This document shows positions 31,068 to 50,143 of a stretch of DNA of 64,000 nucleotides, piece after piece. The notes beneath the pieces were generated by a model that saw only the letters and a program-made list of their open reading frames with translations, was not told where the DNA came from and searched no databases. Where the stretch lies: assembly GCA_004213885.1 (NCBI GenBank), contig SGYL01000005.1:1-64000 (forward strand), given 5' to 3'. Numbering within the stretch: position 1 is the first letter of the stretch; every line of letters starts with the position of its first letter. The position numbers were made by a program, and so were the translations under genes. The stretch is from Alphaproteobacteria bacterium (GTDB taxonomy: Bacteria; Pseudomonadota; Alphaproteobacteria; Puniceispirillales; Marisalimonadaceae).

Positions 31068-31395
31068 TTAATACTCAACGTCATAAATTATAACACCTCT
31101 ATTTGAAAAAACTTTCCATTCAATACCAGTTTTGGTTTTAAATTCAATTTCAGCTTCTCTAAAAATTTTTTGACATTGTACAAAAAATTTTCATCTTTAT
31201 ATTCCCGCAAATGGCCTAATCTTAGAGTGCCTTCTTTATTCCAAATTTGAGATGCCGTTTGACGGAGTGCTCAAGCATTTTTGAATTTTTGAAATTTTCT
31301 TCCATTATTTTCTCCCATTCCATCTGACCCGCCTTTAAATCGCTTTGGGATTGAAAATCACTAGTTATATAACTCATTAATTTTGAATCTGGCAT
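31068..31395 (-). pseudogene. Frameshifted paralogue of the 45.5-kb small-protein gene
   Basis: From ATG 31395 the minus strand reads MPDSKLMSYITSDF and MEWEKIMEENFKNSKMLEHS. It shifts near 31265 to TASQIWNKEGTLRLGHLREY, and again near 31176 to QKIFREAEIEFKTKTGIEW and NRGVIIYDVEY before TAA at 31068. The QIWN-KG-EY and NRGV blocks align with the gene at 45469 (QIWNVKG, FEYES) and the broken copy at 48.5 kb (VWNKG, NRGIVV). At least two frameshifts, so not expressed as one protein. Confidence 0.72.
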
Positions 31396-31482: not shown

Positions 31483-31489
31483 ATAGGTA

Positions 31490-31539
31490 CGTTCATCCTT
31501 TAGGACGGAAGTAAGTATTTATATAATACTGAAGGAACG
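31490..31539 (+). promoter_or_regulatory. Glutamine riboswitch aptamer, first of two in tandem
   Basis: A three-way junction. P1 is CGTTC (31490-31494) with GAACG (31535-31539). P2 is TCCT (31496-31499) with AGGA (31502-31505). P3 is AGTATT (31514-31519) with AATACT (31525-31530). The conserved joins CATC, GACGGAAGTA and GAAGGAACGCA match the glnA / Downstream-peptide RNA families, which bind L-glutamine in cyanobacteria and marine metagenomes. The assignment is from memory of the consensus. The fold and the second copy are seen directly. Confidence 0.85.
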
Positions 31540-31548
31540 CATTATCAT

Positions 31549-31595
31549 CGTTCATCTCGTAAGAGACGGAAGTAGGTAATGATGCCGAAGGAACG
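31549..31595 (+). promoter_or_regulatory. Glutamine riboswitch aptamer, second of two in tandem
   Basis: Same architecture as the first. P1 is CGTTC (31549-31553) with GAACG (31591-31595). P2 is TCTC/GAGA closed by GTAA (31555-31566). P3 is GGTA/TGCC (31575-31586). The P2 and P3 pairs differ from copy 1 but remain paired, which is internal covariation. Bases CACCT (31596-31600) directly after P1 can pair with AGGTG (31616-31620) of the ribosome binding site, a plausible expression platform acting on translation. The ON or OFF sense cannot be decided here. Confidence 0.86.
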
Positions 31596-31623
31596 CACCT
31601 AACTTTAACAGAGGGAGGTGACT

Positions 31624-31740
31624 ATGACATACAGACAATATCAATGGAAACAGTGTGTAATTGCACGTAGACGTGCACTTATTCATAAGTTATTGAATTA
31701 TCGTACACCCATGTCTTGTAAGTGCAAATTGGCTACTTAA
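31624..31740 (+). CDS. 38-residue highly basic peptide under glutamine riboswitch control
   Basis: Starts MTYRQYQWKQC and ends with CKCKLAT. GGGAGG (31613-31618) lies five bases before the ATG. It has five Arg (three consecutive at 15-17), four Lys and one His with no Asp or Glu, three Cys, and a probable single helix over about 4-25. Downstream-peptide riboswitches precede short ORFs of this type. In cyanobacteria a glutamine riboswitch controls the glutamine synthetase inactivating factor GifB, also small and basic, so a nitrogen-signalling inhibitor peptide is a reasonable but unproven idea. It is followed by a terminator, so it is a one-gene unit. Confidence 0.78.
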   Translation: MTYRQYQWKQCVIARRRALIHKLLNYRTPMSCKCKLAT

Positions 31741-31753
31741 GCAAACTACTAAT

Positions 31754-31785
31754 GGGAGTAAGTTTAAAAACTTACTCCCTTAAAT
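31754..31785 (+). terminator. Terminator of the riboswitch-peptide unit
   Basis: GGGAGTAAGTTT (31754-31765) is perfectly complementary to AAACTTACTCCC (31768-31779). It stands between two convergent genes and may serve both, although the T tract is weak on both strands. Confidence 0.78.
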
Positions 31786-45932: not shown

Positions 45933-46622
45933 TTAAAATTTTTCTAGCCAAGGTCTTATTTCTAATTCCCAAGACCATACACTTCTTTTTTGATTATAAA
46001 ATTCTAGATATCTTTTTGCAATCTCATCCGGACATAATTTATCATCATCTTTTTCATATGGTCTATTCTCAGACACTATGCTTCCATCTATTATAAAGTG
46101 ACCTATGTGAATATTTTGTGGATGTAATTCACGTGCTAATGATTGTGCTAAACCTCTTAAAGCAAACTTACCCATTGCGAATACTGATGAATTCGGAAAG
46201 CCCTTTGTGCTGGCAGATGCTCCTGTAAAAAAAATGCTTCCAGAACCTTTTTTCTTCATTCTCTTAACTGATTGTTGTGCAACTAAAAAAGCACCAAATA
46301 ATGTTATATTTAATGCATTTCTTGTGTTTTCTATATCTAATTCTTCAATAGGTCCTCTTACTCTTGAAGATGGATTATAAATCACTAAGTCTGGTTCCTC
46401 CTTTATATCATCTAATTTGCTAAATAAATTTTCAACATCAATTGAAGATGACACATCACACTTAAAAACATTTGCCTTTAATTCTTTCTTAACATTTTCA
46501 AGTTTATTAATATTCCTTGCCACTAAAGAAATAGACATTCCATTTTTATGAAATAATCTTGCAAGAGATAAACTTAATCCACTACCTACACCTATTATCA
46601 AAGCCTTTTTGTAAAGTGACAT
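45933..46622 (-). CDS. SDR-family protein lacking the catalytic tyrosine
   Basis: 229 residues. The Rossmann motif is GVGSGLSLSL (11-20). The position of the catalytic Tyr is Phe: F148 in VFAMGKFAL, with the Lys K152 kept. The NNAG motif is replaced by NPSS. The fold is intact but the chemistry may differ, or it may bind rather than oxidise. The substrate is unknown. Confidence 0.75.
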   Translation of the reverse strand: MSLYKKALIIGVGSGLSLSLARLFHKNGMSISLVARNINKLENVKKELKANVFKCDVSSSIDVENLFSKLDDIKEEPDLVIYNPSSRVRGPIEELDIENTRNALNITLFGAFLVAQQSVKRMKKKGSGSIFFTGASASTKGFPNSSVFAMGKFALRGLAQSLARELHPQNIHIGHFIIDGSIVSENRPYEKDDDKLCPDEIAKRYLEFYNQKRSVWSWELEIRPWLEKF

Positions 46623-49707: not shown

Positions 49708-50078
49708 TGATTATATAACTATGCTATAAATTTTGAGATAAAAGATTCTTTTTTTAATAATGTACTAGGAGTCTTTATAAATTATTTAGTTTATTTGATA
49801 AAATAGTAATCAAATATTAATAAATTAATATTGTTTTTGTCCTTACCACTATTGATAATAAAAATGATTAACCTGATGTAATTTTCTAATCATTTAGCAC
49901 TGCTATATATTAATTCATAAAGCATATAACTTTTAGGGTAGGGGTTAAATTTGTCACAATCCTGTCACACACATATTCAAAATACATTGAAAATTAGACC
50001 AAAAAGTATATTATTAAATTAATTACTGTTATCTAAAACGCTAAGTTTTCTAGGGATTTCAGAAGTTCTTGAGAATTT
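49708..50078. other. Non-coding gap at the right edge of the variable region
   Basis: About 370 bases of AT-rich sequence. It has GTCACAATCCTGTCACACAC near 49954-49973 and no ORF that I accept. It ends at the tRNA-Gly fragment. Confidence 0.5.
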
Positions 50079-50143
50079 CTCAGGGGTAGAGCACAACCTT
50101 GCCAAGGTTGGAGTCGAGGGTTCAAATCCCTTCGCCCGCTCCA
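50079..50143 (+). pseudogene. 3' fragment of tRNA-Gly (GCC), probable integration scar
   Basis: From CTCAGGGGTAGAGC onward the sequence is a normal tRNA-Gly: anticodon stem CAACC/GGTTG around TTGCCAA, T arm GAGGGTTCAAATCCCTT, 3' acceptor strand CGCCCGC (50133-50139) and CCA. The 5' acceptor strand GCGGGCG and the first D-stem base are absent; the bases before it (TTGAGAATTT) cannot pair. Integrative elements commonly target the 3' half of tRNA genes and leave such a copy. Confidence 0.8.

Follow-up and report, generated by a model that had tools for sequence, protein, structure and literature searches.

A 38-residue cationic peptide gene behind tandem glutamine riboswitches in a marine alphaproteobacterial family, with relatives in viruses

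Main finding

The stretch of alphaproteobacterial DNA that was analysed here (the window, 64,000 nucleotides) contains a small locus that, judged by its sequence, is a self-contained unit of tandem glutamine aptamers, a hairpin over the Shine-Dalgarno (SD) sequence, a short open reading frame (ORF) and a probable terminator. That the 38-aa ORF gives rise to a real, riboswitch-controlled peptide we consider almost certain. A first-pass annotation had described the product as a possible glutamine-dependent regulator of nitrogen metabolism. This proposal stands in part: the frame is conserved behind a tandem glutamine riboswitch and the same aptamer class is also found before nitrogen genes, but homology to the inactivating factors IF7 and IF17 was not found. 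The annotation missed the occurrence in marine viral contigs and in a betaproteobacterial clade, with varied small basic products.

The peptide gene

The gene (31624–31740, forward strand), which was defined from the ORF list, conservation, dN/dS and alignment, starts with the ATG at 31624 and encodes MTYRQYQWKQCVIARRRALIHKLLNYRTPMSCKCKLAT, 38 aa followed by a stop at 31740. Counting on the translated ORF gives four Lys and five Arg (nine together), one His and no Asp or Glu, with RRR at positions 15–17 and CKC at 32–34, which agrees with the composition claimed earlier (nine Lys/Arg, one His, no acidic residue, RRR, CxC). The predicted structure is a single helix of residues 3–27 (mean pLDDT 72.5). 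An SD sequence, GGGAGG, is located at 31613–31618 (forward strand), 5 nt from the ATG. Behind the gene, a hairpin with an 11-bp stem (31754–31779, forward strand; −16.5 kcal/mol, z −5.0) is followed by an AT-rich tract and is probably a terminator; comparable hairpins occur 3' of the gene in two relatives (L074, z −5.5; L079, z −6.8). The hairpin at 31754–31779 was absent from the output of a rule-based terminator scan, and a promoter scan of the host copy yielded no convincing promoter. The next downstream gene is on the opposite strand, and no close same-strand gene follows the peptide.

The four host peptides described below gave no matches to Pfam and NCBIfam up to E 10. Against PHROGs there was one match (0.16), and the best hit of a PDB profile search was to parathyroid-hormone analogues (E 0.31); both were taken as chance. 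Elsewhere in the window, a 57-aa ORF at 31222–31395 (reverse strand) looks like a frame-shifted remnant: at the corresponding position the related genome G006 has an intact gene of 109 aa (L075, 3827–4156), of which the ORF is a shortened version. A partial and weak tRNA match at 50078–50132 (forward strand; 31.9 bits, model positions 10–63) is perhaps a tRNA remnant.

The riboswitch leader

Directly upstream of the ORF, and on the same strand, cmscan detects two aptamers of the type 1 glutamine riboswitch (RF01739), at 31488–31543 (56.3 bits) and 31547–31599 (61.3 bits), both exceeding the gathering threshold of 35. An Rfam scan at gathering threshold gives RF01739 only, without a match to the type 2 model RF01704 (Downstream-peptide) at the site, and these are the only two RF01739 matches in the window genome (1.41 Mb, 84% complete). 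In the four genomes with an intact peptide, aptamer 2, the linker and the tail are near-identical letter by letter, in contrast to a variable aptamer 1 and a variable coding region.

The predicted SD-sequestering hairpin (31596–31620, forward strand) is formed by CACCU (31596–31600) and AGGUG (31616–31620), with CUUU/AGAG pairing inside. It has a predicted energy of −9.9 kcal/mol (z −3.5), and its first pair adjoins P1 of aptamer 2 with a spacer of 0. Its pairing probability is 0.96–1.0, irrespective of whether P1 is forced. In folding of seven constructs from six leaders, the SD hairpin was predicted with and without forced P1; when P1 was forced, the two helices were directly adjacent in all seven, and when left unconstrained P1 formed in only one. 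Since the SD hairpin is predicted either way and P1 rarely forms unforced, the folding energies cannot separate an ON from an OFF switch.

A possible further element, to be regarded as a lead only, is the CAUUAUC linker (31540–31546, forward strand), which can pair with GGUAAUG at 31575–31581 to give a 7-bp alternative helix that would break aptamer 2. Of 27 distinct tandem leaders, 11 can form such a helix between the linker and P3 of aptamer 2; ten have CATTATC/GGTAATG, and L095 has TATTATC/GGTAATA, which differs by one compensatory change. The helix is missing from all seven amt, glnA and CP-ATP-grasp tandems among the 27.

Conservation in the host family

Carriers of RF01739, the window genome included, number 10 among 198 relatives, 9 among 136 genomes from the order and 6 among 385 in a class sample. 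The peptide frame is intact in the window genome (G000) and G006, which form one genus, and in G019 and G048 of another genus of the same family. G006 is the SAR116 single cell AG-903-E20, and G012, of the same genus, is SAR116 AH-287-A08; the SAR116 label of the family is based on these two genomes of one genus, and G019 and G048 are labelled Alphaproteobacteria. A fifth copy (G033) is broken by three stops and has a single weak aptamer (37.6 bits); by its sequence it is a decayed copy and no conserved disruption. Conservation of the frame had been named beforehand as the point on which the proposed function could fail, and what is found is four intact copies and one broken copy with a weak aptamer. 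The family has 58 genomes in the set, and in the remaining 53 the peptide was not found, apart from one borderline match (G039) taken as chance; this absence is soft since most of these genomes are incomplete. With a peptide model, 6 of the 385 genomes of the class sample gave a match at E 0.01, i.e. the window genome and five genomes with short partial matches (E 0.003–0.009) that were taken as chance.

The substitution pattern, analysed by Nei-Gojobori counts of dN/dS, is that of a frame on which purifying selection acts. Between G000 and G048, changes are counted at 16.4 of the 23.2 synonymous sites and at 21.6 of the 90.8 non-synonymous sites (omega 0.13). Other comparisons between the genera gave 0.15 (G006–G019) and 0.23 (G006–G048), with G000–G019 saturated. 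Within genera, omega was 0.24 for G019–G048 and 0.48 for G000–G006, the latter resting on six changes only. Between host and viral copies it was 0.09–0.23 in 14 of 20 pairs, the other six being saturated.

Window-type peptides in viruses

A degenerate pattern based on the peptide, in which the aptamer was not used, retrieved eight viral contigs with four distinct peptides, and in all eight RF01739 lies directly upstream. The aptamer is itself preceded in all eight by TATAAATA, which we take to be a T4-like late promoter. Among four additional contigs of the window type, this element is present in L243 and L254 and absent from L231 and L327; among the matches listed it occurs in 33 of 115 viral leaders of the leader-pattern set described below. 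A tmRNA (alpha or permuted) was found within the fetched stretch in five of the eight contigs. L209 has a primase-helicase stretch in common with P-TIM68, a Prochlorococcus phage, and a stretch for a recombination protein in common with the Shewanella phage Thanatos-1. The short viral contig L327, which is mixed in appearance, carries the SCNC tail seen in the host peptides together with the same tandem leader.

Alignment of 11 window-type peptides (four host and seven distinct viral ones) shows M1, T2, Y3, W8, K9, A14, R15, H21, L24, R27 and A37 to be invariant and R17 (10 of 11), A18 and K22 nearly so. All 11 have the aptamer upstream, although L231, L243, L254 and L327 had entered via an aptamer pattern. 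The window peptide thus fits MTY..[YF][QS]WK....AR.....H..L..R behind a glutamine aptamer, a family definition that is partly circular as it was made on these data. The more divergent candidate L174 was left out of this alignment; in an earlier one that contained it, M1, Q7, K9, H21, K22 and R27 were invariant. Searching 50,697 phage records with the window peptide by tblastn gave no match, a search with the leader DNA gave one that was taken as chance, and a tighter leader pattern gave none in the viral contigs.

Other small basic products behind glutamine aptamers

A pattern describing the leader matched 12 loci in genome contigs and at least 120 in viral contigs. For the 132 loci listed, an ORF was assigned by rule in 127, whereas three were too short and two had no ORF. 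Among these matches, 93 of 94 unique products are small, with 27–66 aa and a net charge between +3 and +11 (those of L101 and L116 were read in a miscalled frame), and the remaining one is a large glutamate-synthase-like ORF. To counter the bias of the leader pattern, a second viral scan used the aptamer core alone and gave at least 120 loci. Of 115 that were examined (104 new, 11 earlier), 100 have an SD and an ORF by the rule, 11 do not and four are at contig ends; since the first ATG that fits within 98 nt is accepted, the rule is biased toward finding some short ORF. Inspection by eye of the 11 loci showed no aptamer in L252, L258 and L296, and YRG-like ORF starts that fall outside the rule in L234, L237, L244, L255, L264 and L291. 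Among the matches listed, 94 of 95 unique core-scan products are at most 80 aa long, and of these 87 have a net charge of +3 or more and one a charge of 0 or below. A charge of +3 or more was found for 87 of 93 products of at most 70 aa, as compared to 117 of 305 control SD-ATG ORFs of 25–70 aa from the same contigs, again among the matches listed; the controls are not proven genes and the products are interrelated, so that a P value for this difference is no strict probability.

The products include the window type, an LWTQYC type, an NTIIFQ type, a 64-aa type with TSGY, a 50-aa type ending in DPRLQKI, and DUF4278. The LWTQYC type is also present at seven betaproteobacterial loci of the leader-pattern set. 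In G552 (L213), a further betaproteobacterial genome, the gene shows an in-frame tandem duplication with an SD-like stretch between the copies. The 64-aa type is also found at a Porticoccaceae locus (L078). Relatives of the 50-aa type occur in the Pelagibacter phages HTVC023P and Mosig; the aptamer is upstream of the relative in Mosig, and none was found upstream in the HTVC023P stretch. Matches to PF14105 (DUF4278) above its cut-off were obtained for the viral products of L104 and L151 and for one further viral product, and the L104 and L151 ORFs have a tandem type 1 leader with CAUC/GAUG pairing between aptamer tail and SD. The product of L259 has a YRG start and a basic helical stretch, with PF14105 at E 0.074 only and PF18419 (ATP-grasp_6) at E 0.0016, below the cut-off of that model. 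L259 and L292 seem to combine a YRG (DUF4278-like) piece with a basic helical piece, which recalls the two-part layout of IF17, with no Pfam match above cut-off. In a PHROGs search with ten other peptides, the DUF4278-like and 64-aa types hit phrog_545, 5049 and 32989, which are families of unknown function. No match was obtained by tblastn in the 50,697 phage records with the 64-aa type, the LWTQYC type and one DUF4278-type viral product.

On sequence comparison the peptide types look unrelated. A common ancestry was considered and is not claimed: hhalign gave a probability of 24% (P 0.00086) for the window type against LWTQYC and 27% (P 0.0007) against NTIIFQ, which is too weak since short helices of similar make-up can yield such scores.

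Covariation between the aptamer tail and the SD

In the Rfam model the aptamer ends in four unpaired positions, which in the peptide leaders are able to pair with the SD. This was examined with 76 unique leaders, drawn from the matches listed, in which the SD side had been left free by the search pattern. A match of tail and SD was found in 74 of these, as CACC/GGTG (54), CACT/AGTG (16) or CATC/GATG (4), and the other two (L101, L116) failed solely because the start rule picked the ATG inside GGATG. For a wider set of 125 tail-SD pairs among the matches listed, with L101 and L116 left out, the mean Watson-Crick run was 3.66, as compared to 3.20 (sd 0.06) with permuted SDs, and none of 1000 permutations reached the observed value; the sequences are related and hence not independent. 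At least four pairs were possible in 49 of 50 leaders with CACCT, 23 of 27 with CACTT and 7 of 13 with CATCT. Tail-SD pairing was lacking with CACCA (0 of 6), CAAAT (0 of 3) and most single-copy tails of this set, and also in many DUF4278-like viral leaders. The leaders of glnA and amt have different tails, CGCA and CGGA. The covariation is thus, at the sequence level, a trait of part of the leaders, present in most marine leaders of this class.

Nitrogen genes behind the same aptamer class

A role of the peptide in nitrogen metabolism is likely, since in other alphaproteobacteria aptamers of this class are found before glnA, before amt, and before glutamate-synthase-like and CP-ATP-grasp genes. 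The aptamer is positioned before amt in three genomes of the same order (G059, G062 and G065; Pfam was run on the G062 product), and in G012 it precedes a glutamate-synthase-like gene with GATase_2 in its first 120 aa, the part that was tested. An alphaproteobacterium outside the order (G295) has eight aptamers in four tandem pairs (L333–L340), which precede glnA, two amt genes and one CP-ATP-grasp gene. In family f12, 23 of 32 genomes carry the aptamer. Reading 27 f12 loci by eye gave the same CP-ATP-grasp gene in 22 (Pfam was run for L009 and L045), Gcw_chp in one, a 77-aa ORF in three and a contig end in one. The three loci with the 77-aa ORF (L068, L069 and L070, genome G521) are near-identical and located on three contigs, perhaps as a phage or repeat. 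At L060 and L065, the start codon of the CP-ATP-grasp gene directly follows the aptamer, so that the SD would be inside it, which suggests an OFF switch at these loci.

Glutamine synthetase (GS) was found in all 12 genomes tested, with a weak match only in G549, and these include the seven betaproteobacterial genomes with the LWTQYC unit that were checked. In the window genome the match to PF00120 is located at G000:C1:107444–108535. GlnE was detected in all nine tested genomes of the window's family, with or without the peptide, so that this family needs no replacement for GlnE. It was not found in eight of eight riboswitch-bearing betaproteobacterial genomes with an LWTQYC-type unit (including G552) nor in the Porticoccaceae genome, all of unstated completeness. 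Among riboswitch-less relatives it was present in 25 of 28, which were the nearest and some small ones of 92 and no random draw; the exceptions are G553, G555 and G567. A function as GlnE replacement was considered and not adopted: the betaproteobacterial loss is a single clade-level event, which cannot prove replacement, and it extends to the nearest riboswitch-less genomes, G553 and G555.

Relation to known systems

The window peptide resembles the products of gifB (IF17) and gifA (IF7) in being small, Arg-rich and cationic and in its expected link to nitrogen assimilation, and like gifB it has a type 1 glutamine aptamer in the 5' UTR. According to a review, three arginines are needed for binding of IF7 to GS (PMC6316151). 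In the window type, R15 and R27 are invariant and R17 is present in 10 of 11 peptides, and the parallel in number may be due to chance. IF7 has 65 aa, in contrast to the 38 aa of the window peptide, the host of which is a heterotrophic alphaproteobacterium with GlnE. By sequence, the peptide does not belong to the IF7/IF17 family: NCBIfam NF052599 (IF7A) gave no match up to E 10, and hhalign gave P 0.038 over nine columns. The identity of the IF7 probe was confirmed by its match to NF052599 (2.7e-36). The first-pass annotation had disclaimed any sequence homology, rightly so, as neither NCBIfam IF7A nor Pfam DUF4278 is matched.

DUF4278 is the domain that forms the N-terminus of IF17, and small DUF4278 proteins of marine picocyanobacteria (PMM1846 type) have been reviewed as being tied to the type 2 glutamine riboswitch. 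Like these, the window peptide is tiny and encoded behind a glutamine riboswitch; unlike these, it lacks YRG repeats and a PF14105 match, and its aptamer belongs to RF01739 instead of RF01704. By sequence the peptide is thus a new family, wired like the cyanobacterial IF/DUF4278 units and outside those families. The peptide sP26 of Methanosarcina mazei is likewise very small and linked to both nitrogen and GS. It has 23 aa, is archaeal and stimulates GS (PMC7760959), and in the latter two respects the likeness ends.

The marine methylophage Melnitz (Kyanoviridae) has the same aptamer class as the window, followed by a short basic ORF. The riboswitch is said in the publication on this phage to be in the 3' domain of ssrA and to control the tmRNA (PMC9004378). 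In record MZ577097 the tmRNA model ends at L212 position 1848 and the aptamer follows at 1856–1904 on the same strand, while the tmRNA feature of the record extends to 1894. The ORF MTLYQQWCYLKAQKEYRRRQKILMYFRIRLKG (32 aa, basic) starts 22 nt after the aptamer, at L212 1927–2025 (record 46469–46567), so that aptamer and ORF together cover L212 1856–2025 (record 46398–46567). It is unannotated in the record, an antisense ORF being annotated instead, and the tail-SD pairing is CACT/AGTG. Since the aptamer follows the tmRNA core, and a 5' leader cannot follow the gene it leads, the published riboswitch control of the tmRNA looks doubtful on this layout. A shared transcript with 3' effects on the tmRNA is a possible alternative.

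Proposed function and alternatives

The explanation that we consider best overall, at about an even chance of being correct, is a stand-alone glutamine-sensing gene of which the cationic helical peptide would serve as a brake on nitrogen assimilation. The glutamine level would set translation of the peptide via the SD hairpin, and the peptide would act in trans, given that no close same-strand gene lies downstream; both steps are strongly inferred. By likeness to IF7/IF17, the peptide may be a stoichiometric regulator that binds to an acidic surface of a nitrogen-assimilation protein, with glutamine synthetase as the first candidate target. Direct regulation of GS or PII, suggested by this analogy, is a tentative idea that we would sooner doubt than assume. 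For use as a brake the peptide would be made at high glutamine, and we lean, with some reserve, towards a switch that is ON with glutamine. Copies or analogues are carried by phages, so that exchange of the unit between host and phage is probable, and phage copies may reset host nitrogen flow during infection.

The opposite polarity, with glutamine stabilising P1 and the SD hairpin stacking on P1 so that translation stops, has a lower yet substantial probability; the peptide would then be made at low glutamine and promote nitrogen scavenging or spare GS. This agrees with the direct adjacency of forced P1 and SD hairpin in all seven constructs, with the occurrence of the same aptamer class before glnA and amt, which are expectedly shut off by glutamine, and with the start codons of L060 and L065 adjoining the aptamer. 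However, the glnA and amt leaders have other tails (CGCA, CGGA), and both Synechocystis gifB and a Prochlorococcus aptamer are activated by glutamine, according to the review (PMC6316151). A phage-derived peptide for phage-host conflict, e.g. superinfection exclusion or takeover of transcription or ribosomes, with the switch providing timing only, would explain the window-type peptides on viral contigs (L209 sharing replication and recombination gene stretches with P-TIM68 and Thanatos-1), the putative late promoter ahead of the aptamer in the eight contigs and in L243 and L254, the tmRNA nearby in five of the eight, and the patchy presence across the family. We nevertheless find this unlikely, as the host copies are under purifying selection on contigs with other ORFs that look bacterial by eye, and as the same switch is found on glnA, amt and glutamate-synthase-like genes.

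The strong positive charge, single predicted helix and lack of acidic residues would also suit a general nucleic-acid or ribosome binding peptide, acting as a growth-rate brake with glutamine as growth signal, but the specific invariants W8-K9, R15, H21, L24 and R27 exceed what charge would need, and this reading appears improbable. Finally, the ORF is very short and one copy (G033) is broken, as would fit a spacer or leader ORF without a functional peptide, or an RNA that is itself the product. That has hardly any probability in view of dN/dS values far under 1, both between the genera and in comparison with the viral copies; moreover, with the next gene on the other strand and a hairpin after the stop, a leader would control nothing, and the aptamer of G033 is weak as well.

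Significance

In earlier publications, glutamine riboswitches are described in cyanophages (PMC9964418, PMC9602691) and in Mosig, AG-345-P14 and Melnitz, with mention of other marine bacteria and phages as carriers (PMC9004378). The glnA motif was listed under 'Cyanobacteria, marine', with tandem copies and, as downstream genes, those for PII, GS, glutamate synthase and ammonium transporters (PMC2864571). A 2018 review gives glutamine riboswitches as restricted to cyanobacteria (PMC6316151). The open-licence PMC literature, as far as its text was accessible, yielded no report of a glutamine riboswitch in SAR116 and none of small ORFs behind phage glutamine riboswitches; earlier mention elsewhere is possible. 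The present results widen the range to aptamers before tiny basic proteins in a SAR116-type family, a betaproteobacterial clade and many viral contigs, with core nitrogen genes of other alphaproteobacteria also behind glutamine aptamers.

The SD hairpin, through its covariation with the aptamer tail, provides a handle at the level of mechanism. The data point to a host-phage regulator family, the ORFs of which were overlooked in Melnitz and carried as hypothetical in Mosig and HTVC023P. A broader view, which we put forward at somewhat less than an even chance, is that marine heterotrophs and phages share a large unnamed class of glutamine-gated micro-regulators acting on nitrogen assimilation and traded between host and phage, of which gifB/DUF4278 is one branch; one riboswitch cassette with SD hairpin would then drive many independently evolved, host-matched cationic peptides. 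Direct regulation of GS outside the cyanobacteria becomes testable with a synthetic peptide of 38 residues, and these units of a switch and a tiny peptide suggest an overlooked control of nitrogen use.
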